The position numbers were made by a program, and so were the translations under genes. The notes below the pieces were generated by a model. The model searched no databases. It saw only the letters and a list, made by a program, of their open reading frames with translations, and had not been told where the DNA came from. This document shows positions 1-53,116 of a stretch of DNA of 64,000 nucleotides, piece after piece. Position 1 is the stretch's first letter. Each line of letters opens with the position of its first letter. Origin of the DNA: Armatimonadota bacterium (lineage in GTDB: Bacteria; Armatimonadota; Fimbriimonadia; Fimbriimonadales; Fimbriimonadaceae); NCBI GenBank assembly GCA_022563855.1, contig JADFMN010000001.1, positions 1 through 64,000 of the forward strand, read 5' to 3'.

Positions 1-790
1 ACCACAGGCGCCCGGTGAGCGGATCGAAAGTCAGGCCGAACGAGTTTCGGATGCCGTAGGCGAACAGCGCCCGTATCCGTGGATCGCCCTCGCCGATGAA
101 CGGGTTGTCGCCAGGGATCGAGCCGTCTAGGTTCAGGCGGGCGATCCCGCCGACGCCGGCAACTGCGGTCGAGTGGGTGTTCTGCTCGATTCGCGGGTCG
201 CCGAAGGTTCCGCGACCCAGGTCTCCCGTGATGACGTAGAGCTTTTCGTCCGGACCTATCTGGATGATTCCGCCGTCGTGATTCACTGTGTTGGCTTGGG
301 CAGGGTCAAACGGGAAGACGACGATCGTGGATTCGAACGTCAGCGTGCTTCCGTTCCACACGAACCGCTCAACTCGGTTATCCAGCCACGTGCCGCCCTG
401 GAAAGTGGCCCGAGAGTAGTAAAGATACACGAGGGGGGTGATCGCAAAATCAGGGTGCAGACAGATGCCCAAGAGGCCTCTTTCACCGGTCGGAGAGACG
501 TCCAAGTCGATGGCAGTCCCCTGAAACACCCCGTCCAGATAGTGCTGCACCCTGCCGGTGTTCTTTTCGAGAACGAGCAGTTCATCGTCATCGACGAACG
601 CCATCGTAGTTGGGAGGCTTAGATCCGTGATGATGGTCTCGACGAAATATCCGGGGAGGGTAAACGTTTGCGATGCTGCCGAGCCGCTGATCGCGAGGAG
701 CGCGAGCACGGCGCATGGCGACGCCAGGCACCGCTTCGACCGGGATCCATCGGAAGCCGCCCGGGGCTGAAGGTGTCGCATCGCCGCCAT
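1..790 (-). CDS. Secreted PQQ-type sugar dehydrogenase-like protein, copy 1 (3' end cut by window edge)
   Basis: The minus-strand frame is open from an ATG at 790 to the window edge and encodes 263 residues that align throughout with the two complete copies at 1079-2833 and 4150-5907. It starts with a basic stretch, a hydrophobic segment and a likely signal-peptidase site (SGSAASQ), then enters a GSDH-type beta-propeller (glucose/sorbosone dehydrogenase family, soluble PQQ-dependent aldose dehydrogenases) with the family's ERGLLGICLHPDF motif, whose His is the expected catalytic base. The family oxidises sugars at the cell exterior; the substrate here is unknown. The first ~170 bases are almost identical to copy 2 (2043-2215), while other parts differ more, so similarity is patchy. 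The rest of the gene, and perhaps a further tRNA fragment, must lie left of position 1. Confidence 0.85.
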   Translation of the reverse strand, partial: MAAMRHLQPRAASDGSRSKRCLASPCAVLALLAISGSAASQTFTLPGYFVETIITDLSLPTTMAFVDDDELLVLEKNTGRVQHYLDGVFQGTAIDLDVSPTGERGLLGICLHPDFAITPLVYLYYSRATFQGGTWLDNRVERFVWNGSTLTFESTIVVFPFDPAQANTVNHDGGIIQIGPDEKLYVITGDLGRGTFGDPRIEQNTHSTAVAGVGGIARLNLDGSIPGDNPFIGEGDPRIRALFAYGIRNSFGLTFDPLTGRLW

Positions 791-895
791 CACAACTAAA
801 TGATGCACGAGAAAGTGCCTGTTGCGTCGGCTTCGAACTGTTAAAAGTGCCATCCTGGCAGAATTACCTGGGCTTCACGAGGGGGATCGGCGTCA

Positions 896-955
896 CGTGA
901 AATCGTTTCACGACGTACCACGAGAGTACAGATCGTCAGGTTCAAGAGAGTAGAA
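896..955. repeat. Array boundary repeat, left copy
   Basis: About 55 bases (from GTGAAATCG to AAGAGAGTAG) recur with few changes at 3968-4026. Both copies lie just left of a degenerate tRNA fragment and the 3' end of a dehydrogenase gene. It marks the edge of the duplicated unit. No open frame or obvious regulatory role is visible. Confidence 0.7.
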
Positions 956-1029
956 TCGAGTTTGGTTCGAGGTAATTCGTAGCCGTTCCGTCAGCGTGCA
1001 TACGTCGCTTCAGTGATCGAAGAGCAGAA

Positions 1030-1067
1030 TGCGAGGGTCTGCGGTTCAAGTCCGCCCTGCGGCACCA
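1030..1067 (+). pseudogene. tRNA 3'-half remnant (unit 2)
   Basis: The sequence reads like the end of a tRNA: a putative 3' anticodon strand (TGCGA), a five-base variable loop, a T-arm with the TTCAAGT loop, a 7-base acceptor strand CTGCGGC, a discriminator A and an encoded CCA. The bases upstream do not supply the matching 5' acceptor (GCCGCAG), D-arm or anticodon stem, so this is not a working tRNA. A near-identical copy is at 4102-4139. Both lie immediately past the stop codon of a dehydrogenase copy. A tRNA 3' half without its 5' half is what site-specific integration into a tRNA gene leaves behind. Confidence 0.6.
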
Positions 1068-1078
1068 TTTTTTCTGAC

Positions 1079-2833
1079 TTACACGCGCACGGTCCAGACG
1101 ATCTGGTCGATGCGCGCTTGCCACGGATAGGAGATGATCGGCCCGGCCTCCTTCCACTTGAGCCGCGCGCGCATCTTGCGCGTTCCGGATTCGATGAACC
1201 GCGAAGCGCCAGCCAGGAACGTCAGCTCGATCACGGAGTCGGACGTCGTCGCGAGGCGCACGTCCACCTCCTCGTACATCCCGGTGGTGAAATTGAACAG
1301 CTCGATCCACTGCCTGAGGCCTCCGATGTCGGTCGATGCTTCAAGCTTAAACCGCAGCTCGGTAGTTGTGGATACCGGGGCGGTCGCCTCAACGATGACC
1401 TGCACGGGCGCGGCCGAGGCGTTGAGCGTTATCCAAGGGCGTACTACAAGCCGGTCGTCGTCGGAGGCTGCGAGGCTCTGGAGGTTTCCGGAGAGCAAAA
1501 GCCCGCGAAATATCTGAAAGCTCTCTGGCACGAACGGATCGAACACAGGGCGGATGCGGTACACCGCGCCCCGAGTGAGGCTGACGATGTAGAGGTATCC
1601 GTCTGGCCCGATTTGGAAGTCCGTAACGATTCCCCAGCTTGTTCCGACCGAGTACTGGATGCGCTCCGTAGCATTGTCGGCGACGCGGTCGCTGGTTCCC
1701 GTTCGCGGCACGACCCCGTCGCGGGCCGCGTTCGGCTCGAACAGGTACAGGCGGCCGTTGTTAGCGTCGCCCACCAAGACGTGGTTTCGGATGCTTGGCG
1801 CAAACTTGATGCCGCTGAGAAACCGGACGGAGGTCACGCCGATCGGCTGCAGCCAACTGAAGAGCGGATCTTGGTAGAAGGCGCCGGGGAGATAGATGAG
1901 GTCCGCCGCGTCAAACGGTGTGAAGTTGTTCCTGCTGTATGTGGCGTCGCGCGAATCCGGCCCCATGATCTTCAGCCAGCCCGAGTTCATGCCGGACTCC
2001 GCGATGTTCAGCTCGTCGTAGACGGTCGGTCCGTTCTCCGTGTACCACAGGCGCCCGGTGAGCGGATCGAAAGTCAGGCCGAACGAGTTTCGGATGCCGT
2101 AGGCGAACAGCGCCCGTATCCGTGGATCGCCCTCGCCGATGAACGGGTTGTCGCCAGGGATCGAGCCGTCGAGGTTCAGGCGGGCGATGCCGCCAACGCC
2201 GGCAACTGCCGTCGTGTGGGTGTTCTGCTCGATTCGCGGGTTGCTGAACGTTCCGCGAAGCAGATCTCCGGTGATGACGTAGAGCTTGTTGTCGGGTCCG
2301 ATTTGAATGATGCCGGCGTTGTGCCACGGACCGTTGGCTTGCGCAGGATCGAACGGGAAGACGACGATCGTGGATTCGAACGACAGCGTACTGCCGTTCC
2401 ACACAAACCGATCGACTCTGTTGCCCAGCCAAGTGCCGCCCTGGAAAGTGGCCAGAGAGTAGTAAAGATACACGAGGGGGGTGATCGCGAAGTCGGGGTG
2501 CAGACATATGCCCAAGAGACCCCTTTCAGAAGTCGGAGAGACGTCCAAGTCGATGGCAGTCCCCTGAAACACCCCGTTCAGATAGTGCTGGACTCTGCCA
2601 CTGTTCTTTTCAAGAACCAGAAGTTCGTCGTCGTCGACGAACGCCATCGTAGTTGGGAGGCTTAGATCCGTGATGATGGTCTCGAAGAAATATCCGGGGA
2701 TGGTAAACGTTTGCGATGCTGCCGAGCCGCTGATCGCGAGCATAGCGAGCACGGCGCATGACGACGCCAGGCACCGCTTCGACGGGGATCTGCCGGGAGC
2801 AGTAAAGCGATGAAGATGTCGCATTGCCGCCAT
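1079..2833 (-). CDS. Secreted PQQ-type sugar dehydrogenase-like protein, copy 2
   Basis: This is a complete 584-residue protein. The basic N-terminus and hydrophobic segment (residues ~22-38) end in SGSAASQ, a plausible signal-peptide cleavage site. Residues ~45-420 form a GSDH-like beta-propeller with ERGLLGICLHPDF (expected catalytic His) and the repeated Tyr/Gly/Asp strands of quinoprotein glucose/sorbosone dehydrogenases. Residues ~435-584 are a separate C-terminal beta-rich module starting near SGNLQSLAASDDDRLVV. I expect a periplasmic or surface sugar oxidoreductase; cofactor and substrate are inferred from the family only. It lies between two paralogues on the same strand and shares with copy 3 long stretches that are identical or nearly so (for example 2560-2665 with 5620-5725) bordered by diverged DNA. 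The start is the ATG at 2833, which aligns with copy 1. Confidence 0.85.
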   Translation of the reverse strand: MAAMRHLHRFTAPGRSPSKRCLASSCAVLAMLAISGSAASQTFTIPGYFFETIITDLSLPTTMAFVDDDELLVLEKNSGRVQHYLNGVFQGTAIDLDVSPTSERGLLGICLHPDFAITPLVYLYYSLATFQGGTWLGNRVDRFVWNGSTLSFESTIVVFPFDPAQANGPWHNAGIIQIGPDNKLYVITGDLLRGTFSNPRIEQNTHTTAVAGVGGIARLNLDGSIPGDNPFIGEGDPRIRALFAYGIRNSFGLTFDPLTGRLWYTENGPTVYDELNIAESGMNSGWLKIMGPDSRDATYSRNNFTPFDAADLIYLPGAFYQDPLFSWLQPIGVTSVRFLSGIKFAPSIRNHVLVGDANNGRLYLFEPNAARDGVVPRTGTSDRVADNATERIQYSVGTSWGIVTDFQIGPDGYLYIVSLTRGAVYRIRPVFDPFVPESFQIFRGLLLSGNLQSLAASDDDRLVVRPWITLNASAAPVQVIVEATAPVSTTTELRFKLEASTDIGGLRQWIELFNFTTGMYEEVDVRLATTSDSVIELTFLAGASRFIESGTRKMRARLKWKEAGPIISYPWQARIDQIVWTVRV

Positions 2834-2932
2834 AATACTGAATAATGCATGAGAATGGGCATTTTACGTCGGCTGTGAACGGTTAGAATTGCTATCCCGG
2901 CAGAATTACCAGGGCCTTACGAGGGGGATCGA

Positions 2933-3041
2933 CGCAGCTTAGCAAGGAGTATTAGGCAAACAGCCAAGGGTTGATCTTAGTGGACTTTCTTCGAGCCGTT
3001 CGAGTTGCGGCCTAGCAGAGGTAGAGGCAGCGGAACGGCGG
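2933..3041 (+). pseudogene. Fragment of the SLBB/polysaccharide-export gene
   Basis: About 105 bases align clearly with 6235-6343 inside the intact export gene, sharing the block CAGCCAAGGGTTGAT and both flanks. The frame is broken: where the intact gene has GAG TAC TCG, this copy has GAG TAT TAG. The promoter, start codon and first ~40 codons are missing, and similarity stops near 3041. It is therefore a deletion remnant of a second copy of the divergent neighbour of the dehydrogenase, showing that the original duplication covered both genes. Confidence 0.8.
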
Positions 3042-3149
3042 TTTTAATAGTCCAATTCTGGTAATAGTAACAGCCTATATTCAACCTTCTTGTACGGTAC
3101 TGTAGGGTTTCGTCGGCGTCGTTGCGCATCCACCGAGGTGAGCTTTACT

Positions 3150-3941
3150 TTGAGCAGAAGAGGATTATTAGTTGTTGCGGCAGTTCTGGGCTGTGCAGTC
3201 TCGCACGCACACGTGATCTTTCTGACGCACAACGGTAGCGGGGTCGTTATCAACTCACACACTGCTTCGGTCGTCAACTGGCAGATGATCGGCGGGGCGA
3301 ACCATGTGAACCAGCACACCTGGTACTTCCGCGATGGCGACGGTGGGGCGGCTTCGCCCATCAGCGACATCGGCACTCCGACTGACACGTTGTTTGGCAC
3401 CCAAGGTGTAGAGATCGTCTACGCGAACAGCGACCTGACCGTGACGATCAACTACTTTCTGCAGGCCAATAGCGACGGCACGGCTGCTAGCTTGGCTGAG
3501 CAAGTTGCATTCGAGACCAACTTCGGTATTAACCTGCGACTGTTCCAGTACAACGACTATGACATTAACGGTACGCCCGCCGACGATACTGCCACGAGAC
3601 TGAACAGTTCGACGATCGTGCAGTTCGACGGCGACTTTGCGGCGACGACGGGCGGCACGCCGTTCCCTGATTTCAGTGAGATCGGCCCGTTTTCAGCCCT
3701 TCTCCAGAACATTGAGGGCACAGCAGGTTATAACCTCAACACTCTCGCAGGCAACGGCATCGGTGAAACGGTGAACGGCAACATGACTTTCGCGTATCAG
3801 TGGAACCGCAACCTCGGTGACGGCGACTCGTTCGTTTTGAGTACCAACAAGGTCGCCGCAGTCCCTGAGCCCACAACGTTCGCAGTTCTCGGCGTTGGCG
3901 CGCTGGCGCTCCTCAGACGCCGCCGACGCATAGCCGCCTGA
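3150..3941 (+). CDS. PEP-CTERM sorting-domain protein
   Basis: This encodes a secreted protein of about 263 residues. I chose the TTG at 3150 because a Shine-Dalgarno-like GAGGTGA lies 7 bases upstream and the protein then opens with SRRGLLVVAAVLGCAVSHA, a normal signal peptide; the frame itself is open from 3090. The middle is Asn/Asp/Thr-rich and beta-like, with no family I recognise. The C-terminus is a textbook PEP-CTERM tail: VPEP, a hydrophobic helix, then five Arg. Such proteins are sorted by an exosortase (none in this window) and often end up in the extracellular matrix. The gene sits inside the duplicated dehydrogenase array directly after the broken export-gene fragment. Its function is unknown. 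Confidence 0.85.
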   Translation: MSRRGLLVVAAVLGCAVSHAHVIFLTHNGSGVVINSHTASVVNWQMIGGANHVNQHTWYFRDGDGGAASPISDIGTPTDTLFGTQGVEIVYANSDLTVTINYFLQANSDGTAASLAEQVAFETNFGINLRLFQYNDYDINGTPADDTATRLNSSTIVQFDGDFAATTGGTPFPDFSEIGPFSALLQNIEGTAGYNLNTLAGNGIGETVNGNMTFAYQWNRNLGDGDSFVLSTNKVAAVPEPTTFAVLGVGALALLRRRRRIAA

Positions 3942-3967
3942 TAAGCTGAATCACGCAGAGCAGGTCG

Positions 3968-4026
3968 CCTGAAATCGTTCCACTACGTACGACGAGAGTA
4001 CACGTCGTCAGGTTCAAGAGAGTAGC
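3968..4026. repeat. Array boundary repeat, right copy
   Basis: This matches 896-955 and again ends with AAGAGAGTAG just before the region leading to a tRNA fragment. It separates the PEP-CTERM gene from the third dehydrogenase unit. Confidence 0.7.
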
Positions 4027-4101
4027 CCTGATTCTAATTCCAGATAATTCGAAGCCGTACCGTCAGCGTGCATACGTCGCTTCAGTGATCGAAGAGCGGA
4101 C

Positions 4102-4139
4102 TGCGAGGGTCGGCGGTTCAAGTCCGCCCTGCGGCACCA
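4102..4139 (+). pseudogene. tRNA 3'-half remnant (unit 3)
   Basis: This is the better preserved of the two fragments. The T-stem GGCGG/CCGCC closes perfectly on the TTCAAGT loop and is followed by CTGCGGC, A and CCA. Upstream, a short stem with a seven-base AGTGATC loop could be mistaken for an anticodon arm, but it lacks U33 and the 5' acceptor pairs poorly (GCCGTAC against CTGCGGC). I call it a remnant. It directly follows the stop codon of dehydrogenase copy 3. Confidence 0.62.
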
Positions 4140-4149
4140 GTTTTCTGAC

Positions 4150-5907
4150 TTACACGCGCACGGTCCAGACGATTTGGTCGATGCGCGCTTGCCAGGGATA
4201 GGAGATGATCGGCCCGGCCTCCTTCCACTTGAGCCGCGCACGCATCTTGCGCGTGCCGGGATCGATGAACCGCGAAGCGCCGGCCAGGAACGTAAGCTCG
4301 ATCGCTGAGTCGGAAGTCGTCGCCATTCGCACGTCCACCTCCTCGTACATCCCGGTCGTGAAATTGAACAGCTCGATCCACTGCCTGATGCCGAAGATGT
4401 CGGTCGATGCCTCCAGCTTGAACCGCAGTTCGGTGGTCGCAGAAACCGGAGCGGTCGCCTCAACGATGACCTGGACGGGCGGCACGGAGGAGTTGATCAC
4501 GATCCACGGGCGGACTACGAGCCGGTCGTCGTCGGAGGCTGCGAGGCTCTGGAGGTTTCCGGAGAGCAAAAGCCCGCGAAATATCTGAAAGCTCTCTGGC
4601 ACGAACGGATCGAACACGGGGCGGATGCGGTACACCGCGCCCCGAGTGAGGCTGACGATGTAGAGGTATCCGTCTGGCCCGATTTGGAAGTCCGTAACGA
4701 CGCCCCAGCCGGTTCCAACTACGTACTGATTCCGCTCCGTCGTGGTATCGGCGACGCGGTCGCCGGTGCCATTCCGGGGCTCGACTCCATCGCGGTTTGC
4801 GTTCGGCTCGAACAGATACAGTTGGCCGTTGTTGTTGTCGCCCACCAGTACCCAGTCGCGGAAGCTTGGAGCAAACTTGATTCCGCTGAGAAACCGGACG
4901 GACGTAACGCCTATCGGCCGCAGCCAACTGAAGAGCGGATCTTGGTAGAAAGCGCCGGGGAGATAGATGAGGTCCGCAGCGTTGAACGGTGTGTTGTTGT
5001 TTCTGCTGTAAGTTGCGTTGCGCGAATCCGGCCCCATGATCTTCAGCCAGCCTGAGTTCATGCCGGCTTCCGCGATGTTCAGCTCGTCGTAGACGTTCGG
5101 GCCGTTTTCCGTGTACCACAAGCGTCCGGTGAGCGGATCGAACGTCAGGCCGAACGAGTTTCGGATGCCGTAGGCGAACAGCGCTCGTATCCTTGGATCG
5201 CCCTCGCTGACGAACGGGTTATCGCCTGGGATCGAGCCGTCGAGGTTCAAGCGCGCGATCCCGCCGACACCGGCAACGGTCGTCGTGTGCGTGTTCTGCT
5301 CGATACGCGGATTGCCGAAGGTTCCGCGATTCAGATCTCCGGTGATGACGTACAGCTTGTCGTCTGGGCCGATCTGGATGATTCCGCCGTCGTGATTCGG
5401 TCCGTTGGATTGAGCGGGGTCGAACGGGAAGACCACGATCATAGATTCAAACGACAAGACGCTGCCGTTCCACACAAACCGCTCGACTCGGTTGTCCAGC
5501 CACGTGCCGCCCTGGAAACTTGCAAGAGAGTAGTAAAGATAGACGAAGCCGTTGCCCGCAAAGTCGGGGTGCAGGCAGATGCCCAACAGACCCCTCTCAG
5601 ATGTTGTGGAAACGTCTAGATCGATGGCAGTCCCCTGAAACACCCCGTTCAGATAGTGCTGGACTCTGCCACTGTTCTTTTCAAGAACCAGAAGTTCGTC
5701 GTCGTCGACGAACGCCATCGTAGTTGGGAGGCTTAGGCCCGTGATGACGGTCTCGACGAAGTAGCCGGGCAGCGTGGTCGTCTGCGATGTTGCCGAGCCG
5801 CTGATCGCGAGCATAGCGAGCACGGCACATGGCGACGCCAGGCACCGCTTCGACGGGGATCCGTCGGGAGCAGTAAAGCGATAAAGATGTCGTCTTGCCG
5901 CCAACAT
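4150..5907 (-). CDS. Secreted PQQ-type sugar dehydrogenase-like protein, copy 3
   Basis: This complete paralogue has 585 residues from the ATG at 5907; the frame is also open to an ATG at 5934, but 5907 aligns with the starts of the other copies. The layout is the same: signal peptide ending near SGSATSQ, GSDH-type propeller with the GLLGICLHPDF motif, and the ~150-residue C-terminal beta module ending in IVWTVRV. It is divergent from the export gene at 6120, with ~210 bases between them, which looks like the original gene order. Within the family fold it may act on sugars or other alcohols; nothing visible fixes the substrate. Differences from copies 1 and 2 are scattered but interrupted by long identical runs. 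Confidence 0.85.
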   Translation of the reverse strand: MLAARRHLYRFTAPDGSPSKRCLASPCAVLAMLAISGSATSQTTTLPGYFVETVITGLSLPTTMAFVDDDELLVLEKNSGRVQHYLNGVFQGTAIDLDVSTTSERGLLGICLHPDFAGNGFVYLYYSLASFQGGTWLDNRVERFVWNGSVLSFESMIVVFPFDPAQSNGPNHDGGIIQIGPDDKLYVITGDLNRGTFGNPRIEQNTHTTTVAGVGGIARLNLDGSIPGDNPFVSEGDPRIRALFAYGIRNSFGLTFDPLTGRLWYTENGPNVYDELNIAEAGMNSGWLKIMGPDSRNATYSRNNNTPFNAADLIYLPGAFYQDPLFSWLRPIGVTSVRFLSGIKFAPSFRDWVLVGDNNNGQLYLFEPNANRDGVEPRNGTGDRVADTTTERNQYVVGTGWGVVTDFQIGPDGYLYIVSLTRGAVYRIRPVFDPFVPESFQIFRGLLLSGNLQSLAASDDDRLVVRPWIVINSSVPPVQVIVEATAPVSATTELRFKLEASTDIFGIRQWIELFNFTTGMYEEVDVRMATTSDSAIELTFLAGASRFIDPGTRKMRARLKWKEAGPIISYPWQARIDQIVWTVRV

Positions 5908-6119
5908 AACCGAATAATGCACGAAAAAGGGCATTTAACGTCGGCTGTGAACCGTTAGAATTGCTATCCAGGCAGAATTACCAGGGCTTTACGAGGCGGA
6001 GATCGGCTCGGCTTTCTGTCGTTACGGCGATTCGCGAACTGTCTGCAGTACGCCAAAGAACCTAGGCAAAGTCGATGCTTGCCGGCCCCCCGGTGCGTCC
6101 GGTACTGTAGAGGAAAGTC

Positions 6120-7220
6120 ATGCTTCGCCTGACCGTCGTTATGCTTGCGGCCTTGGTTGCCGCTATCGTCATTGCCCAAGAGCCGGCAACGATCGCCAAC
6201 GGCGACCGTCTGCGGCTGCTGTGCGAAGAGGAGCCGCAGCTCAACAAGGAGTACTCGGTCAACAGCCAAGGGTTGATCCTAGTTGACTTTCTCGGCGCTG
6301 TGCGGGTCGCAGGTCTGACCGAGAGTCAGGCGGCGGAGCGGATCGCCACGCAACTGATCAAGGAACGCATTCTCCGATCAGCGACCGTCACAGTTCAGAT
6401 CATCAAGCACGATCCAGCGCCTATCCGGTATCAGGGAAGGGTGACCAAGACGGGCGAGATGCCGTTTCGGAGCGGCATCCGGCTCTCAGACGTCATTCTG
6501 CTCGCGGGAGCGACTGAGGAGACAGACCTTGCGCGCATTCTGATAGTCAGCGACGGCAAGGAGAGGCAGTACGTCGACTACACGCGGTTCGATCCGGCGA
6601 CCAACGAGAACAACCCGCTGCTAAAGCCAGGCGACGTCGTCACGTTTCTTGCAAAGCTCCGGCCAGATCAAGTCGTCGTGCTGGGCGGCGTCGAGCGGCC
6701 TGGAACGATCGACCTCAGCCCTGGAATGACTGTGCGGCAGGCGATACAAGCCGCCGGGGGGTTCTCTACGCTCGCGATACCGGCGGCTGTCAAGCTAGAT
6801 CGGGACGGCGAGGCGCGCAGGACGCTTGACCTCAGTCGGCCCGGACCGGACGTTGAGCTGCGCGGTGGCGACCGAGTGTTCGTCGAGGTCAAGAGTCGCC
6901 GCGAGTACGTGCAGGTCATCGGCGCCGTCGTCAAGGGTGGGTTTATCGAGTTTCGACCGGGCATGACGGTCAGCCAAGCGATCGAGGCGGCTGGCGGCCT
7001 CCGGCCGGAGGCGAAAGCCGCCGCCGTTCGAATTGTGCGGTCTCGGACGAACAACTCCATCGAGTTGGTCGACTTGACAAAGGTCGCAAATGGCACCGCT
7101 ATCGACGTGACGTTGAACGCTGGCAACAGGGTAGAGGTTGACGGATTTCGGTCGCAGAATCTCGACCTGGTCAGGATGGTCGCGACTCTGGCGCTGCTGT
7201 ACTTCCTGCTTTCAAAATGA
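6120..7220 (+). CDS. Polysaccharide export protein with SLBB domains
   Basis: This protein has 366 residues, with an N-terminal hydrophobic segment (about residues 1-20, ending VIAQE). Residues ~25-105 are a poly_export (Wza N-terminal) domain, with the NGDRLRLLCEEE and YSVNSQGLILVDFLG regions. Two or three SLBB beta-grasp domains follow (~120-330), each built around a GxxxPGxIxLxPGMTVxQAIxAAGG-like pattern. A membrane segment (LVRMVATLALLYFLL) closes the protein. The family forms outer-membrane or envelope channels for capsule and exopolysaccharide; the C-terminal helix would anchor this one. GAGGAAA precedes the ATG. A broken copy of this gene is at 2933-3041. Its stop overlaps the next start (ATGA), so the two are probably co-transcribed. 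Confidence 0.85.
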   Translation: MLRLTVVMLAALVAAIVIAQEPATIANGDRLRLLCEEEPQLNKEYSVNSQGLILVDFLGAVRVAGLTESQAAERIATQLIKERILRSATVTVQIIKHDPAPIRYQGRVTKTGEMPFRSGIRLSDVILLAGATEETDLARILIVSDGKERQYVDYTRFDPATNENNPLLKPGDVVTFLAKLRPDQVVVLGGVERPGTIDLSPGMTVRQAIQAAGGFSTLAIPAAVKLDRDGEARRTLDLSRPGPDVELRGGDRVFVEVKSRREYVQVIGAVVKGGFIEFRPGMTVSQAIEAAGGLRPEAKAAAVRIVRSRTNNSIELVDLTKVANGTAIDVTLNAGNRVEVDGFRSQNLDLVRMVATLALLYFLLSK

Positions 7221-26223: not shown

Positions 26224-26934
26224 TTATGACAGATCGAGGTCGACGACGGTTAGGTCCGCTTGGCAGTAAAGGTCGGGGCGGTACTTTCGGGTCGCTTGTA
26301 CCTGCCTCTGGCGGCGCCACTTGGCGATCTGGGCGTGGTTTCCCGACTTCAGCACGTCTGGCACCTGCTCGCCCAAGAACTCCTCTGGTCTTGTGAAAAG
26401 AGGGAATCCGAGCAGGCCTTCGCTGTGGCTGTCGTCCTGGTGGCTCTCCGGGTCGCCCAGAACGCCGGAAAGGAGGCGGACCACCGAGTCGGCCATGACG
26501 AGCGCGGGGAGCTCTCCGCCGGTCAGGACGTAGTCGCCGATCGAGTAGACGTGGGTCGCGAGCCGGGTGCGGACGCGGTCGTCGATCCCTTCATAGTGTC
26601 CGCAGAGGAGGATGAGACGGTCTTCCTTTGACAATGCCTGGGCGGCCGCTTGGGTGAATTTTACGCCGGTCGGGTCGCAGAGGACGACCGGCGTGTTCGG
26701 CTCTGGTTTCAGGGCGTCGAGAGCGTCTTTGATAGGCGGGGCCATCATGACCATGCCAGGTCCGCCGCCGTAGCTCGTGTCGTCTACCGTCCTGTGCTTG
26801 TCGTGGACGAAGTCTCTGGGGTTTGAGGTGCCGAACTCGACCGCCCCGGACTTCGCCGCGCGCGCCATGATGCTGTGCGAGAGGGCGTCCAGCACCATCT
26901 CCGGGAACAAGGTCACGAAATCAACGCGGAGCAT
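26224..26934 (-). CDS. trmD: tRNA (guanine-N1-)-methyltransferase
   Basis: TrmD methylates G37 of tRNAs and so prevents frameshifting. The protein is 236 residues from MLRVDFVTLFPEM at 26934 (the frame runs ten codons further without family similarity). The deep-knot SAM site is evident: LLCGHYEGIDDRVR and YSIGDYVLTGGELPALVMADSV. SYGGGPGMVMMAPP is also a family signature. It heads the trmD-rplS-lepB operon, and only 81 bases separate it from the divergent gcvH, so the two promoters must overlap or abut. Confidence 0.96.
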   Translation of the reverse strand: MLRVDFVTLFPEMVLDALSHSIMARAAKSGAVEFGTSNPRDFVHDKHRTVDDTSYGGGPGMVMMAPPIKDALDALKPEPNTPVVLCDPTGVKFTQAAAQALSKEDRLILLCGHYEGIDDRVRTRLATHVYSIGDYVLTGGELPALVMADSVVRLLSGVLGDPESHQDDSHSEGLLGFPLFTRPEEFLGEQVPDVLKSGNHAQIAKWRRQRQVQATRKYRPDLYCQADLTVVDLDLS

Positions 26935-27015
26935 AGTCCGCAAGGTACCCCGCCCTCGAAGCACAGAGGTAACATCCGACGTGAGCCGAGAGGCGTTTTC
27001 AGGAGTATCGGGCGG

Positions 27016-27396
27016 TTGATTTTTCCAACAGATTTGAAGTACACGAAGTCACACGAGTGGGTGCGCGTCAACGGCGACACGGCCACGGTTGGCATCTCCG
27101 ACCACGCACAGTCCGAGATGGGCGACGTGGTGTACGTTGAGCTTCCCGAGGTCGGCCGCACGCTCCAGTCGCAAGAGTCGTTCGGGACGATCGAGAGCGT
27201 GAAGACCGTCAGCGACGTCTACGCGCCGGTCGCGGGCGAGGTCGTCGAGGCCAACGCGGCCTTGGTCGCCCAGTCCGAGCTACTGAACACCGCCCCATAC
27301 GAGGAAGGCTGGCTCGTCAAGATCAAGATGTCCGATCCGCGGGAGGCGGATTTGCTCATGGGCGCTGAGGCGTACCAAGCGTCGCTCGACGACTGA
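27016..27396 (+). CDS. gcvH: Glycine cleavage system H protein
   Basis: The H protein carries the aminomethyl group on a lipoyl-lysine and shuttles it between the P and T proteins. The TTG at 27016 gives MIFPTDLKYTKSHEWV, the standard opening, with AGGAG ten bases upstream; total 126 residues. The lipoylation site is in FGTIESVKTVSDVYAPVAGEV (Lys of SVKTVS). NTAPYEEGWLVKIKMSD is a second signature. It is the first gene of gcvH-gcvPA-gcvPB-lipoate ligase, with gcvPA starting eight bases after its stop. Confidence 0.95.
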   Translation: MIFPTDLKYTKSHEWVRVNGDTATVGISDHAQSEMGDVVYVELPEVGRTLQSQESFGTIESVKTVSDVYAPVAGEVVEANAALVAQSELLNTAPYEEGWLVKIKMSDPREADLLMGAEAYQASLDD

Positions 27397-27403
27397 TCCC
27401 GCG

Positions 27404-28735
27404 ATGCCGTATATCCCCCACACCGACGAAGACCGCCGTGCGATGCTCGAGACGATCGGCGTCGGTTCAATCGAGGACCTGTTCGTAGAGGTTCCTGCTG
27501 ATCTTCGCGTTAAAGGCGGGCTGAACGTGCCTTCAGCGATGGACGAGCACGCGCTGTTCGGCCACCTGAAAGAGCTTTCAGAGAGGAACGTCGATCTTTC
27601 TCGCACAGTCTGTTTCCTTGGCGCGGGGATCTACGACAGGTACATCCCGGCATCGGTTGGTACGGTGCTGTCGCGAGGCGAGTTTCTGACGGGCTACACG
27701 CCTTATCAGCCCGAGGCTTCGCAAGGGTTTCTGCAGACGATCTACGAGTTTCAGACGATGGTCGCGGAGCTGTTCGACATGGATCTCGCGAACGCCTCGC
27801 TGTACGACGGTGGGACGGCCATGGCCGAGGCCGCTCTGATGGCGCACGGTGTAAATGGGGGGAAAGTGGTTTTTGTTTCTTCGGCGGTGCATCCTCATTA
27901 CAGGCAGATTCTCGAGACGTACTGCTGGCCGATGGGGATCGAGGTGCGCGGGATTCCTGTCTCGGATGGCGCGACTTCCGACTACTCTTCGGTGAACGAC
28001 GAAGCTGCTTGCGTGATCGTGCAGTACCCGAACTTCTTCGGCGTGATCGAAGACCTTTCGTCTGCGCGCGATGCTGCCCGGAAGAGCGGGGCGATGTTCA
28101 TCGTCGTCGCCGATCCGACCGCGATGGGGGTTCTTCCCCCACCGGGGAGGTTTGACGCGGACGTGGTGGTCGGCGAAGGTCAGTCGCTCGGCATCCCGAT
28201 GGGTTTCGGCGGCCCGCTGCTCGGGCTGTTCGCGACGAAGAAGGAGTTTGCGCGGCGCATCCCAGGCCGCATCGTTGGGCGTACGACGTGTGTGCAGGGC
28301 AGGGTCGGGTACACGATGACCCTGCGCACCCGCGAGCAGGACATCCGCCGCGAGAAGGCGACCTCGAACATCTGCACGAATGAGGCGCTGATGGCGCTCG
28401 CCGCGACGGTCTACATGGCCGCGATGGGCAAGAACGGGATGCGCTCCGTCGCCGAGACGACCGTGCGGAACACGCAGTACGCAATCGGTAAACTGACCGA
28501 GGCTGGCGCTTCTTTGAAGTTTGCACGGAAAGTGTTTGGCGAGTTTGTTCTGGAGCTTCCGGTGAACGCGGAAGAGGTGCAGCTCGCGCTCCTGCACGAC
28601 GGAGTCCTGGCCGGCCTTCCGCTCGGAAAGTTCTATCCGGACATGGATAACTGTTTGCTGGTCGCGGTGACAGAGGTGCGCACGAAAGACCAGATCGACG
28701 ACTTCGCGAAGAAGCTCAAGGAGGCAATCGCGTGA
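27404..28735 (+). CDS. gcvPA: Glycine dehydrogenase (decarboxylating) subunit 1
   Basis: This 443-residue protein is the N-terminal half of the two-subunit P protein that decarboxylates glycine and loads the aminomethyl group on GcvH. MPYIPHTDEDRRAMLETIGV is the usual opening of the split form, and YQPEASQGFLQTIYEFQTM, YDGGTAMAEA and GRTTCVQGRVGYTMTLRTREQDIRREKATSNIC are characteristic. It lacks the PLP lysine, which lies in subunit 2. Its stop overlaps the GTG of a 60-codon linker frame (GTGA), and subunit 2 begins 175 bases later. Confidence 0.96.
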   Translation: MPYIPHTDEDRRAMLETIGVGSIEDLFVEVPADLRVKGGLNVPSAMDEHALFGHLKELSERNVDLSRTVCFLGAGIYDRYIPASVGTVLSRGEFLTGYTPYQPEASQGFLQTIYEFQTMVAELFDMDLANASLYDGGTAMAEAALMAHGVNGGKVVFVSSAVHPHYRQILETYCWPMGIEVRGIPVSDGATSDYSSVNDEAACVIVQYPNFFGVIEDLSSARDAARKSGAMFIVVADPTAMGVLPPPGRFDADVVVGEGQSLGIPMGFGGPLLGLFATKKEFARRIPGRIVGRTTCVQGRVGYTMTLRTREQDIRREKATSNICTNEALMALAATVYMAAMGKNGMRSVAETTVRNTQYAIGKLTEAGASLKFARKVFGEFVLELPVNAEEVQLALLHDGVLAGLPLGKFYPDMDNCLLVAVTEVRTKDQIDDFAKKLKEAIA

Positions 28736-28914
28736 TGTTGAACGCCATCCCTCCACACTTCGAGTGTGGAGGGTTTTACTTGCCGGAGGTTCACGCTGAA
28801 TCGAACCCTCCACACTTCGAGTGTGGAGGGATGGTGGAAAGAGGTGATCAGGTGATGTTGAACTCTTACCCTCCACACTTCGAGTGTGGAGGGATGATGG
28901 AGGTGATCGCGTGA
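28732..28914 (+). CDS. Hairpin-bearing 60-codon linker ORF between gcvPA and gcvPB
   Basis: This frame begins with a GTG that overlaps the gcvPA stop and ends with a TGA that overlaps the gcvPB GTG. It encodes 60 residues with three PPHFECGG repeats, each the translation of one copy of a 25-base palindrome. Copies start at 28749, 28806 and 28869, so spacings are 57 and 63 bases, both multiples of three. The peptide resembles no family I know. The frame could exist to keep ribosomes moving from gcvPA into gcvPB, to make a small peptide, or simply be open by chance. Evidence that it is translated is positional only. Confidence 0.4.
   Translation: MMLNAIPPHFECGGFYLPEVHAESNPPHFECGGMVERGDQVMLNSYPPHFECGGMMEVIA
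28749..28773. repeat. 25-base hairpin repeat, copy 1
   Basis: A perfect palindrome: arm CCCTCCACACT, loop TCG, and the exact complement of the arm. It should form a stable 11-bp stem in RNA or DNA. Followed by TTTTAC, so in isolation it resembles an intrinsic terminator. Confidence 0.9.
28806..28830. repeat. 25-base hairpin repeat, copy 2
   Basis: Identical to copy 1. No T-run follows; the flank is ATGGTGGAAAGAGG. Confidence 0.9.
28869..28893. repeat. 25-base hairpin repeat, copy 3
   Basis: Identical to copies 1 and 2. It ends 17 bases before the gcvPB start codon, so a folded stem would sit just upstream of the GGAGGTGA ribosome-binding site. The preceding GTGATGTTGAAC also occurs before copy 1, so the repeat unit extends about 12-15 bases to the left. 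Confidence 0.9.
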
Positions 28915-30389
28915 TTCAACGAGGAGTTCCCGAACCGAAGTCTCTGTTCGAGAAATCATCCCCTGGGCGGGTCGGTTGCAACCTGCCGAAGGCGACTACT
29001 CCAGAGGTCGATCTGAGCAAAGCGATCGGAGAGTCGAGAACAGAACTCAACCTGCCGGAGATCGCGGAGCTGGACCTGATCCGGCATTTCACGAACCTCA
29101 GCCAGATCAACTACGGGATCGACACGGGGTTCTATCCGCTCGGCTCGTGCACGATGAAGTACAACCCGCGGATCAACGAGATGACCGCGTCGCTGCCCGG
29201 CTTTACGCAGCTCCATCCGATGCAGCCGGAGGACTCTGTGCCGGGGGCGCTCGAGGTGTTCATGCAGGTTTACGAGATACTCGAAGAGATCACAGGTTTC
29301 GACGAGATCACGATGCAGCCGGTCGCCGGCGCGCACGGCGAGCTGACGTGTCTGCAGATGATCAAGGCGTACCAACAGGGCAAGGGCGAGAAGCGAACAG
29401 TCGTGCTGATCCCCGACTCCGCACACGGCACGAACCCTGCGAGCGCCGCGCGCTGTGGCTATGACGTCAAGTCGGTACCGACCAACGACGAGGGCAATAC
29501 CGACCTGAACGCGCTCGCAAACGTGCTCGACGAAACCGTCGCGGCGTTCATGGTCACGAACCCCTCGACGCTCGGGCTGTTCGAGCCGCACATCGTCAAG
29601 GTTTGCGAGATGGTCCACGCGGCCGGCGGGCAGGTGTTCTGCGACGGCGCGAACATGAACGCGATGGTCGGCACGACCCGGCCCGGCGACCACGGCTTCG
29701 ACTGTATGCACCTCAATCTGCACAAGACGTTCAGCACGCCGCACGGTGGCGGCGGTCCGGGGTGCGGCGCGATCGGGCTGATGAGCCACCTCGAACCGTT
29801 CATCCCAACGCCACATCTAAAGCGGATAAACGGCAAACCGAAATTCGACTACAACAGGCCGCAGAGCATCGGTCGCGTGAGCGATTTCCACGGGCAGTTC
29901 CTGATGGCTGTCCGCGCGCTGACGTATCTGCTCGCATACGGCAAAGAAGGTCTGCCCGAGATCAGCAGGCACGCGGTGCTGAACGCGAACTACGTGATGG
30001 CGCGGCTGAAGGATGTACTCCCGCCAGCGTACGACAGGACGTGCATGCACGAGTGTGTGCTGACGGCAAAGCAGTACAAGAAAAACGGTATCCGTGTGCT
30101 CGACATCAGCAAGCGCCTGATCGACTACGGCTTCCACCCGCCGACCAACTACTTCCCGCTGATCGTCCCCGAGTGCCTGATGATCGAGCCGACGGAGACG
30201 GAGAGCAAGGAGACGCTCGACGCCTTTTGCGACGCGCTGGTCGCGATCTGTAAAGAGGCTGAGACCGACCCCGACCTATTGCTCAACGCGCCGAGCAGCC
30301 AAGTCGTCGGCCGGCTCGACGAGGTGAAGGCGGTCAAACAGCTCGACGTCAAGTGGACCGCAGAGCGGCCCGAAACGAGCCCGGTGTAA
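28911..30389 (+). CDS. gcvPB: Glycine dehydrogenase (decarboxylating) subunit 2
   Basis: This is the PLP-bearing half of the split P protein, 492 residues from the GTG at 28911, which has GGAGGTGA five bases upstream. PLP is bound by Lys272 in HLNLHKTFSTPHGGGGPGCGAIG. TGFYPLGSCTMKYNPRINE and HGTNPASAARCGY are other signatures. Residues upstream in the same frame come from the hairpin repeat and are not family-like. With gcvH and gcvPA it forms three of the four glycine-cleavage components; the T protein (gcvT) is not in the window. Confidence 0.96.
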   Translation: MIQRGVPEPKSLFEKSSPGRVGCNLPKATTPEVDLSKAIGESRTELNLPEIAELDLIRHFTNLSQINYGIDTGFYPLGSCTMKYNPRINEMTASLPGFTQLHPMQPEDSVPGALEVFMQVYEILEEITGFDEITMQPVAGAHGELTCLQMIKAYQQGKGEKRTVVLIPDSAHGTNPASAARCGYDVKSVPTNDEGNTDLNALANVLDETVAAFMVTNPSTLGLFEPHIVKVCEMVHAAGGQVFCDGANMNAMVGTTRPGDHGFDCMHLNLHKTFSTPHGGGGPGCGAIGLMSHLEPFIPTPHLKRINGKPKFDYNRPQSIGRVSDFHGQFLMAVRALTYLLAYGKEGLPEISRHAVLNANYVMARLKDVLPPAYDRTCMHECVLTAKQYKKNGIRVLDISKRLIDYGFHPPTNYFPLIVPECLMIEPTETESKETLDAFCDALVAICKEAETDPDLLLNAPSSQVVGRLDEVKAVKQLDVKWTAERPETSPV

Positions 30390-30395
30390 AGAGTG

Positions 30396-31064
30396 ATGCT
30401 CGTCACAGTCGAACCCCTGAAAGACGGCAGGACGAACATGGCCCGAGACACAGAGCTTCTTGAGCTCGCCGAGAGGGGCGAGTCCGCCGCGCGGGTCTAC
30501 TCATGGGACGGAGCGTGGGTCAGCCTGGGACGTTTCCAGCACCCGGAAAAGGCGCTGCTGCACCCCGAGAGGATCAACTGGGTCGTGCGCCCAACCGGCG
30601 GCAAAGCGGTTCTGCACGGCCACGACGTGACGGTCGGCTTGGCGCTGTCGCTCCGAGACATCGGGATCGGCGAAACGGAGGCTAGGCGTATTTCGGTCGT
30701 TTATCGCAGAGCTATCGGGCCGTTGGTTGAAGCCCTGTCACGCGCTGGGGTTTCCGCAGAGCTTGCGGAAGACACAGAGTTCGTTCGCAACGCGGGGCAC
30801 TCGGCGGACTGCTTTAAGTACGTTTTGCCGAACGACATCGTCGATCCTTCGACGGGCAAGAAGGTCTGCGGCTGTGCGCTCCGGCTTACCGACCGAGCGG
30901 TTCTGGTTCAAGCCAGCATTCCGAACGGCACGCCGCTCGTACCGCCTGAGACGGTGTTTCGCGAGGCGCAACAGACCGCCGCCGCTGGAAAGCTGAATCT
31001 GTACGATTTTGCACAGGAATTGGCTTCTGCGGAATGGAACCCACGGATTCTCAGTTGCGTGTAA
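30396..31064 (+). CDS. Lipoate-protein ligase A family protein
   Basis: This protein of ~222 residues belongs to the biotin/lipoyl transferase (BPL/LplA/LipB) fold. SWDGAWVSLGRFQ, VVRPTGGKAVLHGHDVTVGLALS (matching the R-PTGG-AV-H motif) and a Lys in GKKVCGCALR near residue 155 fit the ligase/transferase active site. Lying seven bases after gcvPB, it probably lipoylates GcvH, either by ligation or by octanoyl transfer (LipM/LipL-like). Which of these cannot be told from sequence. An in-frame GTG at 30393 precedes the ATG. Confidence 0.85.
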   Translation: MLVTVEPLKDGRTNMARDTELLELAERGESAARVYSWDGAWVSLGRFQHPEKALLHPERINWVVRPTGGKAVLHGHDVTVGLALSLRDIGIGETEARRISVVYRRAIGPLVEALSRAGVSAELAEDTEFVRNAGHSADCFKYVLPNDIVDPSTGKKVCGCALRLTDRAVLVQASIPNGTPLVPPETVFREAQQTAAAGKLNLYDFAQELASAEWNPRILSCV

Positions 31065-31070
31065 TACAAT
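31065..31070 (+). promoter_or_regulatory. -10 box (TACAAT) six bases before the start codon
   Basis: TACAAT overlaps the end of the lipoate-ligase gene region and is followed by six bases and then the ATG at 31077, again the spacing of a leaderless transcript. No -35 match is clear. Confidence 0.42.
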
Positions 31071-31076
31071 AGAGAC

Positions 31077-32060
31077 ATGCCGCGTCCTATGGTCATCCTG
31101 TCGATGCTTCTTGTGGTGCTCGTCATCGCTTGCGGTTGTAGCAGCGGGGCTGGGAAGGCACCGCTTACGGGCATCTCTGGCCCTCCCTCCAATGAACCGG
31201 CAAGGGACGCTGGTCCACCGTGGGAGCTCGACAGAATTCCCGAAGGAGTCGGCGAACCAGGGGAGCAGTTGTACTCATTGGCGATTCAGTACGAAGAGGG
31301 AGCGGAGTATCGATACGAGCTGACGAACGACATGGTGAATCGGCTGCCCGACCCAATTTTCGGTCAAATGGTGACGGTGAAGAGCGATCTGACCGCGACT
31401 CAGACCGCGAGAATCGAGCAGCTGGATGGCAGCGGTGCTGTGATTCTGATCAATACGTTCAACGTCGAGTCTAACGTTGAAGGGGACGAAGAGGTAGCGA
31501 TCCTTATCCAGGATGCCACGGCGGGTATCGAGGGCTCGCTCATGAGAGGCAACTACGACGAATTCGGTCGCGGCACCGATGTCTTTCTAGAGCGTGGGAT
31601 CGGCTTGAGTCCAATCGGCGCACAGGCGGGCGACGAAGACCTGATCGTCGGGCTAATGGGATTGCTGTTGCCGCCTACGCCGGTAACGCTGGCCGATGAG
31701 TGGTTGGGATCGTTCGATTTCACTGCCCAGGTCGGGTCATTCTTCGTCAAGGTCGGAGGGACCGTAGAGAACGGCGAGTTTCCGATCGTTTACGCTCTCG
31801 AACAGGTAAACGAGGAAGAGAACTACGCAGTGATCGGCATTCGATCGGAGGGCCGCCCCACGATCATTCTGGCACTCGTCGGCGATGAAACAGTCTCTTC
31901 CGAAATGCACGTCTTGATGGAAGGCAGGGCGCTGATCGACCTAGATACAGGCTGGTTGCGCGAGATGAAGGTCACGACGACGGTCGACTACTCCGGGTTT
32001 ATGCCTGGCGTCAAGCAGGTCGTTCAAAGCACCACCAGGCGGGTTTCTATAAAGAAATAA
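31077..32060 (+). CDS. Predicted lipoprotein of unknown function
   Basis: This 327-residue protein has a lipoprotein signal peptide ending VIACGCSSG (lipidation at one of the two Cys). After a Pro-rich linker to about residue 60, the mature domain is beta-rich: YSLAIQYEEGAEYRYELT, LTATQTARIEQLDGSGAVI, and a C-terminal half with VTTTVDYSGFMPGVKQVV. The layout resembles the 'outer-membrane lipoprotein with repeated beta-sandwich' type seen with DUF-named families, but I cannot name one. It is followed by a bidirectional terminator shared with rpoD. Confidence 0.65.
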   Translation: MPRPMVILSMLLVVLVIACGCSSGAGKAPLTGISGPPSNEPARDAGPPWELDRIPEGVGEPGEQLYSLAIQYEEGAEYRYELTNDMVNRLPDPIFGQMVTVKSDLTATQTARIEQLDGSGAVILINTFNVESNVEGDEEVAILIQDATAGIEGSLMRGNYDEFGRGTDVFLERGIGLSPIGAQAGDEDLIVGLMGLLLPPTPVTLADEWLGSFDFTAQVGSFFVKVGGTVENGEFPIVYALEQVNEEENYAVIGIRSEGRPTIILALVGDETVSSEMHVLMEGRALIDLDTGWLREMKVTTTVDYSGFMPGVKQVVQSTTRRVSIKK

Positions 32061-51675: not shown

Positions 51676-51806
51676 GGCCTTTCAGCTCAGGGCGATGCAC
51701 ATGGGATTTCGGACGTTCTGCTGATCGAGGACGGGTGTTCGCGGAGAGCGGGGAACAAACACCGAATCCAGGTAGTTTCACTAGGTCGTCGGAGACCAAA
51801 ACCTTA

Positions 51807-51812
51807 TATACT
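51807..51812 (+). promoter_or_regulatory. -10 box (TATACT) of the second PEP-CTERM gene
   Basis: TATACT lies ~100 bases before the chosen start, giving a long leader. A -35 box is not clear. Confidence 0.35.
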
Positions 51813-51914
51813 CATCCTCGTATCGCACGACTTTGGTTTCGAAAGGGTCTGTTGCGGCTTGAAGATCGCTCAGCAATCTGGCTTTCGACACGTGCGTATT
51901 TCAGGAGAATGAAT

Positions 51915-52508
51915 ATGATTCGAGGAGCACAAATACTTACATCTAAACCGTTCGTGACCGCAATCGCGGTCGGTTCGATTGCAGCGCTCGCGCTGCTGCC
52001 CAACCGCGCACAGGCTACACCGTTGAGGCTGGACTACACCATTCAGGACATTGGAGGCGGACTCTTCGACTACGAGTTCTTCCTGACGGTCGACAACAAC
52101 GACAATACATACGCGGCAGGACAAGGTTGGAGATGGCTCATCTTTGGCGACGTGCCATCAGGGGCGCCGCCCCTAACTAGTTTCACCGGTGATTTGGGGG
52201 ACATGCCGGTAGGCCCGTGGACCTTTTACGGGACTACCAGCGGAGGCCACAACGGGCCGAATCTCGGGTTCGTGCTCGACTTCTGGATACCGACGGGAAT
52301 CGGCGACTCCCTTTTCTGGTCGGGAACGTCGACTGCGGTCGTGCCGGAAGGAGATCTGGACTGGAGCACGATCGCCGGTACTCTTAATGGTGGCGTCGTG
52401 GCGGATTTCGAGCACGCACACTTGGTCCCAGAGCCAGCATCGCTGTCCGTGCTGGCGCTCGGCGCTTTGGCTCTACTGAGGCGAAGACGAAAGCGCGCTG
52501 ACGCGTAG
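51915..52508 (+). CDS. PEP-CTERM sorting-domain protein
   Basis: From the ATG at 51915, seven bases after AGGAG, this is a 197-residue secreted protein; the frame is open back to 51735 but only this start has a ribosome-binding site and yields a signal peptide (FVTAIAVGSIAALALLPNRAQA). The mature part is a beta-rich domain with many Gly/Asp/Trp, followed by VPEPASLSVLALGALALLRRRRKR. It belongs to the exosortase-sorted class and is not obviously related to the protein at 3150-3941 outside the tail. A perfect 14-bp hairpin ends the transcript. Confidence 0.88.
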   Translation: MIRGAQILTSKPFVTAIAVGSIAALALLPNRAQATPLRLDYTIQDIGGGLFDYEFFLTVDNNDNTYAAGQGWRWLIFGDVPSGAPPLTSFTGDLGDMPVGPWTFYGTTSGGHNGPNLGFVLDFWIPTGIGDSLFWSGTSTAVVPEGDLDWSTIAGTLNGGVVADFEHAHLVPEPASLSVLALGALALLRRRRKRADA

Positions 52509-52582: not shown

Positions 52583-52705
52583 TTCGGTTCTCGTACTGCC
52601 TACCGATCTACCGAGGATTCGTCGTGTACAACGGCCTGACCGACGAATCGGAGATTCACAGACGACACAGGGTGGACAATTCGCAGCGGCTAGTTCTGAA
52701 TTGTT

Positions 52706-53040
52706 GGTACTCCCGACGGGATTCCCTTCGACAGGCTCAGGACAAGCTTCTCATCCCGGCTGTTGTAAAATAAGAAATCAGGACGGACTGTCTTCGAAAG
52801 CCCGTCCTGGTTTCTTGGTACTCCCGACGGGATTTCCTTCGACAAGCTCAGGACAGGCTTCTCATCCCAACGGAGGCCAAGAACTAAGCCAGGACGCACT
52901 TGCTATCGCAGCACGTCCTGGCTTAATTGGTACTCCCGACGGGATTTCCTTCGACGAGCTCAGGACAGGCTTCTCATCCCTACGGAGGCCAAGAACTAAG
53001 GCAGGACGCACTTGCTATCGCAGCACGTCCTGGCTTAATT
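52706..53040. repeat. Three ~112-bp tandem repeats at the 3' end of tRNA-Glu
   Basis: Units start at 52706, 52817 and 52929, and the tRNA's own equivalent position is 53041, so the periods are 111, 112 and 112 bases. Each unit begins with the last ~20 bases of the tRNA gene in antisense (GGTACTCCCGACGGGATT), then CCTTCGACAAGCTCAGGACA with slight changes, a spacer and a GC-rich inverted repeat around AGGACG/CGTCCT that reads as a terminator-like hairpin on the minus strand. No protein-coding signal is present. Confidence 0.85.
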
Positions 53041-53116
53041 GGTACTCCCGACGGGATTCGAACCCGCGATCTTCGCCTTGAGAGGGCGATGTCCTAAACC
53101 GCTAGACGACGGGAGC
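53040..53116 (-). tRNA. tRNA-Glu (CUC anticodon)
   Basis: The 77-base cloverleaf on the minus strand has acceptor GCTCCCG/CGGGAGT (a G-U closing pair), D-stem GTCT/GGAC, anticodon loop CTCTCAA reading GAG, T-arm GCGGG/CCCGT around TTCGAAT, and an encoded CCA. The three units at 52706-53040 repeat its 3' end. Confidence 0.94.

Follow-up and report, generated by a model that had tools for sequence, protein, structure and literature searches.

The DNA analysed here, a 64,000-nt stretch of an Armatimonadota genome (the window), carries the two glycine dehydrogenase subunit genes gcvPA and gcvPB on the same strand, with a linker between them that is built of hairpins (H) and copies of a stop/start junction (J) in the order J1-H1-H2-J2-H3-J3. 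Both gene assignments, proposed in a preliminary description of the sequence, were confirmed by scores above the curated NCBIfam cut-offs. The features are as follows, with hairpin scores from the covariance model R1 introduced below.

27404-28735, + strand: gcvPA, glycine dehydrogenase subunit 1 (602 bits on NF001696, whose cut-off is 364)
28720-28736, + strand: J1, GGAGGCAATCGCGTGAT, ribosome-binding site and GTGA at the end of gcvPA (direct repeat D3)
28732-28914, + strand: 60-codon open linker frame, from the GTG of J1 to the TGA of J3
28745-28777, strand not assigned: H1, REP copy (44.4 bits on the + strand, 41.1 bits on the - strand)
28802-28834, + strand: H2, REP copy (54.1 bits)
28840-28856, + strand: J2, AGAGGTGATCAGGTGAT, internal junction copy, in frame with J1 (direct repeat D2)
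28865-28897, + strand: H3, REP copy (51.2 bits)
28899-28915, + strand: J3, GGAGGTGATCGCGTGAT, ribosome-binding site and GTG start of gcvPB (direct repeat D3)
28911-30389, + strand: gcvPB, glycine dehydrogenase subunit 2 (688 bits on NF003346, whose cut-off is 441)

Hairpins and junction copies between gcvPA and gcvPB

A scan of the window located three identical 25-mers, CCCTCCACACTTCGAGTGTGGAGGG, at 28749-28773, 28806-28830, and 28869-28893, with start-to-start distances of 57 and 63 nt, as had been reported; 100 shuffles gave no match like this triplet. The 25-mer had been called a perfect palindrome present three times. The three copies are indeed identical, but each has perfect 11-bp arms around a 3-nt loop (TCG) and mismatches its own reverse complement at 3 positions, so that it is properly an inverted repeat. 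A single copy folds at -19.2 kcal/mol. H1 starts 13 nt past the gcvPA stop and forms with H2 an inverted pair with 31-nt arms (inverted repeat I1). The flank tags of H1 (CAT...TTT) are in reverse orientation but its loop is forward, as if its centre had been swapped with that of a neighbouring copy.

The preliminary description had not included the triplication of the stop/start junction. J1 and J2 lie 120 nt apart, and J1 resembles the gcvPA/gcvPB overlap of relatives. Among 29 gcvPB loci examined in related genomes, gcvPA was adjacent in 17, and in 15 of these the two genes overlap by 4 nt (n = 7) or 1 nt (n = 8), while in the remaining two they are separated by 4 and 12 nt; a clear gcvPB ribosome-binding site lies within the end of gcvPA in several. 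A comparison of the linker in relatives, for conserved frame and stems, had been put forward as a check, and it found all 17 adjacent junctions free of any insert. In a same-genus genome, the contig ends within gcvPA.

Two other repeat regions were seen in the window. Positions 1-6310 hold three long direct repeats that have diverged to about 82-91% identity over 300-nt pieces, at offsets of 2043 and 3071 nt; two of them each contain a full-length ORF on the - strand, and these ORFs are paralogous (584 aa at 1079-2833, 594 aa at 4150-5934). A tandem array at 52704-53058 (3.2 copies of a 112-nt unit, 88% matches) adjoins an ORF with a PEP-CTERM-like tail (51735-52508).

A dispersed repeat family and an associated transposase gene

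The hairpin proved to be one of many in the genome (3.18 Mb in 22 contigs; G000 in the coordinates below). There are 11 exact copies of the 25-mer and 11 more with one mismatch (loop GCG or ACG for TCG), while a relaxed pattern adds copies whose stems carry paired changes, for example CCCTCAACACTGCGAGTGTTGAGGG and CCCTCGACACTGCGAGTGTCGAGGG; a control pattern had no matches in the same genome. Model R1, trained on 39 copies with those of the window left out, recovered all three window copies at the scores listed above, and found at least about 44 loci at E < 2e-6 when 150 of 1052 first-look candidates were scored. The stems show covariation, with 7 both-sided cells against 0.6 in shuffles, a covariation score of 0.081 against 0.027, and both-sided change at 3 pairs. 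The repeat unit is about 31 nt long, with the form nGAA-hairpin-ATGn. In a wider contig collection, from which the window's own or near records were possibly left out, the exact pattern had no match, nor did it in 200 relatives, where the covariance model found diverged look-alikes beside REP-associated tyrosine transposase (RAYT) genes.

Common occurrence at random positions had been named beforehand as an outcome that would count against a special role of the linker. The repeat is spread genome-wide, but it is strongly intergenic: by a purpose-made, simple codon-score gene finder (coding fraction 0.82 in sampled loci), 41 of the 43 copies examined were intergenic, against 7.4 ± 2.4 expected from random placement, with 13 between convergent and three between divergent genes. 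Most copies are singlets, and clear inverted pairs elsewhere are found at C3:322808/322864 and, twice, on C16. The two apparently non-intergenic copies lie at the 3' end of the RAYT frame described below (G000:C6:166076-166108) and in an ORF tail (G000:C12:5319-5351). The C-terminal tails of both ORFs are read through a REP copy, that of the RAYT ending in ...TLHTASVEGW, showing that REPs can provide coding tails. Copies at G000:C1:390455, 391353, and 392283 have similar flanks about 900 bp apart, and G000:C16:10683-11566 contains duplicated inverted REP pairs; these local repeats suggest recurrent local duplication around REPs.

The genome contains nine matches to Y1_Tnp. One of them, at G000:C6:166076-166660 (- strand), matches NF047646 (REP-associated tyrosine transposase) at 91.6 bits against a curated cut-off of 80. 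Repeat copies lie on both sides of its gene in opposite orientation (C6:166080(-), 166686(+), and 166834(+)), the layout described for such genes (PMC2817692). The HUH histidines H65 and H67, and Y138, are invariant in 15 homologues, and a PDB search with the RAYT gave a match to an IS200-type transposase (E = 0.22, not significant by itself). In related genomes, R1 matches flank homologous RAYT genes (e.g. at loci L200, L203, L205, L210, and L212). At a further locus, L204 (865-1123 of contig 342 of related genome G013), five REP-like hairpins stand in tandem beside a RAYT gene at steps of 55-56 nt, a row that represents array growth, with a spacing like that of the window yet not a multiple of three. 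The other eight Y1_Tnp matches (L061-L063 and L065-L069, at G000:C9:134668, C1:247072, C10:56678, C3:46253, C1:285658, C7:39412, C5:110556, and C3:285711) had no R1 match within 1.5 kb of flank, and may serve different repeats or none.

Judged by its sequence, the hairpin repeat is a member of the REP/RAYT family in the broad sense, because it is a short, dispersed, extragenic stem-loop palindrome with a compensated stem, and inverted copies flank a RAYT gene here, as look-alike palindromes flank homologous genes in relatives. It shares with described REP, BIME, and REPIN elements and their RAYTs, or TnpA-REP (PMC2817692, PMC3116915, PMC8266576), a palindrome of 20-50 nt, dispersed and extragenic copies, compensated stems, some close inverted pairs or tandem arrays, and the inverted flanking of the transposase gene; extragenic siting, often near gene ends, is typical of REPs (PMC2817692, PMC12306157). 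It differs from them in its nGAA head and ATG tail, its copy number of about 44, mostly as singlets, and its Armatimonadota host. REP copy numbers are usually >100 (PMC2817692), and both this modest number and the absence of the GTAG head of most described REPs count against the assignment. Since the consensus head is not GTAG or GTGG, the repeat was not placed in the GTAG-tagged superfamily. H1 and H2 have inverse flank tags, as would be expected of the neighbouring, oppositely oriented REPs of a REPIN or BIME, but the loop of H1 is forward. A search of a collection of papers for Armatimonadetes together with REP-associated tyrosine transposases found no report.

Reading frame and predicted RNA structure of the linker

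The single frame claimed for the linker is present: it is open throughout, overlaps gcvPA by the GTGA at 28732-28735 and gcvPB by that at 28911-28914, and encodes PPHFECGG three times, once per copy, as had been noted. It matched no protein family. A translational relay could be read into this arrangement, in which a co-opted array sets the amount of GcvPB made per GcvPA because translation of the 60 codons opens a sequestered gcvPB ribosome-binding site. Ribosomes would leave gcvPA, re-start at J1, translate the linker, melt the structure, and re-start at J3. The open frame, the GTGA at either end, and the good ribosome-binding sites at J1 and J3 all fit such a relay, as do the linker codons outside the REP copies, which score like those of genes (0.256 per codon, from about 30 codons, which is little sequence).

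The GTGA ends, however, follow from duplication of the junction, and the REP element is free of stop codons in all six frames. When the spacers were randomised and the junction copies and hairpins kept, the bridge stayed open in 25% of trials at constant spacer length and in 3% when the lengths were allowed to differ by up to 3 nt, so the open frame, judged post hoc, is at most mildly unusual. Nor do REP arrays keep frame in general, since neighbouring copies elsewhere in the genome are spaced at 45, 45, 56, 148, and 254 nt, and those of L204 at 55-56 nt. The linker as a whole scores 0.041 per codon, a value lower than that of 95% of genes (5th percentile 0.064) and in the range of wrong frames (95th percentile 0.110). 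Taken with the points in its favour, this leaves the relay unlikely.

Computed folding predicts strong structure for the whole region (z = -6.8). H1 and H2 favour mutual pairing in one long hairpin of -61 kcal/mol, a preference absent from the preliminary description. The gcvPB ribosome-binding site is predicted to be mostly paired, with unpaired probabilities of 0.05-0.20 over four of its five bases; J3 would pair with 28863-28866 and 28847-28856, the ribosome-binding site itself mostly with 28863-28866. In the joined empty site, it is predicted to be more open (0.18-0.90), and clearing of the strand upstream of 28894 would free its first three bases (0.80-0.92), both of which would also suit a relay.

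The structure might instead act independently of any linker translation, the array lowering or uncoupling expression because ribosomes stall at the gcvPA stop, the transcript is processed, or transcription terminates at H1. The long H1:H2 hairpin is very stable, and H1, at 13 nt past the stop, lies within the range (<16 nt) at which REPs of E. coli are reported to lower translation in work cited in PMC12306157. H1 is also followed by TTTTACTT and is the only terminator-like site in a promoter and terminator scan, but 0.7 such sites were expected in shuffles, which puts it at chance level; moreover, a translated linker would open the hairpins. Attenuation by the array is on balance unlikely, though a better prospect than the relay, and it is compatible with the preferred reading of an inserted REP array as a side effect. 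From the strong predicted structure, the paired gcvPB ribosome-binding site, and the position of H1 within the range given in that cited work, a modest effect of the array on the gcv operon is plausible, which translation of the linker could lessen.

The preliminary description also raised the possibility of a riboregulator acting at the junction. Stable stems do lie beside the gcvPB ribosome-binding site, but about 40 unrelated loci, most of them intergenic, carry the same element, and relatives lack it at the gcv junction, so a gcv-specific or glycine-responsive element is very improbable. Rfam gave no match above gathering score over 26300-31200, the sub-threshold matches being of microRNA type and to the long hairpin. 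A glycine regulator of a type held in Rfam was rejected for the junction on this result.

Origin of the linker

The linker is very probably a small REP array of a lineage-specific family that was inserted at an ancestral stop/start overlap, with duplication of the junction. A REP array would have entered the gcvPA/gcvPB junction, ancestrally a direct overlap, by the action of a RAYT, and the one encoded elsewhere in the genome is its likely mobiliser. RAYT-mediated insertion alone leaves the duplicated junction unexplained, so a separate step must be assumed; in the simplest history, junction and repeat would have been tandemly duplicated with the insertion or after it. J1 would still end gcvPA and J3 would still start gcvPB, and the duplication would explain why GTGA stands at both ends and why the gcvPA stop and the gcvPB ribosome-binding site and start are intact. 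Because relatives overlap directly and three junction copies are present here, duplication of the ancestral junction is the best reading of the GTGA overlaps. The gene-like score of the linker codons outside the REP copies counts against this history.

Ribosomes that once began gcvPB directly at the overlap would now be able to enter the stop-free linker at J1, open the hairpins on their way, and initiate again at J3. With such a passage, the array was presumably tolerated rather than evolved as a regulator, and it most likely has a modest effect on the operon. The third proposal of the preliminary description, a mobile palindrome preserved in frame-neutral form, was essentially right, given about 44 copies, a RAYT gene, and a stop-free element.

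Two known systems invite comparison. Palindromic repeats readable as protein are known from REPs in reading frames, including the Rickettsia palindromic elements (PMC3733652, PMC10969869), and repeat clusters encoding 43-82 amino acids have been reported (PMC3733652). The Rickettsia elements, however, are about 150 bp long and lie in frame inside genes, whereas 41 of 43 copies here are intergenic and lack the CGTC tag; an in-frame palindromic element of that type was rejected because of the intergenic copies. The linker also resembles mgtQ-type short ORFs (PMC8092293) in being a small ORF between two genes that spans stem-loops and precedes the ribosome-binding site of the next gene. The mgtQ-type ORF controls translation of that gene, while the linker consists of mobile repeats together with a duplicated junction.

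The hairpins are mostly ordinary, then, being a known class of mobile repeat at an interesting site, and one candidate gcv regulator can be dropped from the list. The results add to the Armatimonadota a RAYT/REP family with a non-GTAG tag, and provide a clear example of a REP array inside a gene overlap, where the duplicated junction keeps the stop, ribosome-binding site, and start of both genes. If translation of the linker matters, mobile palindromes would be able to create new operon couplings.
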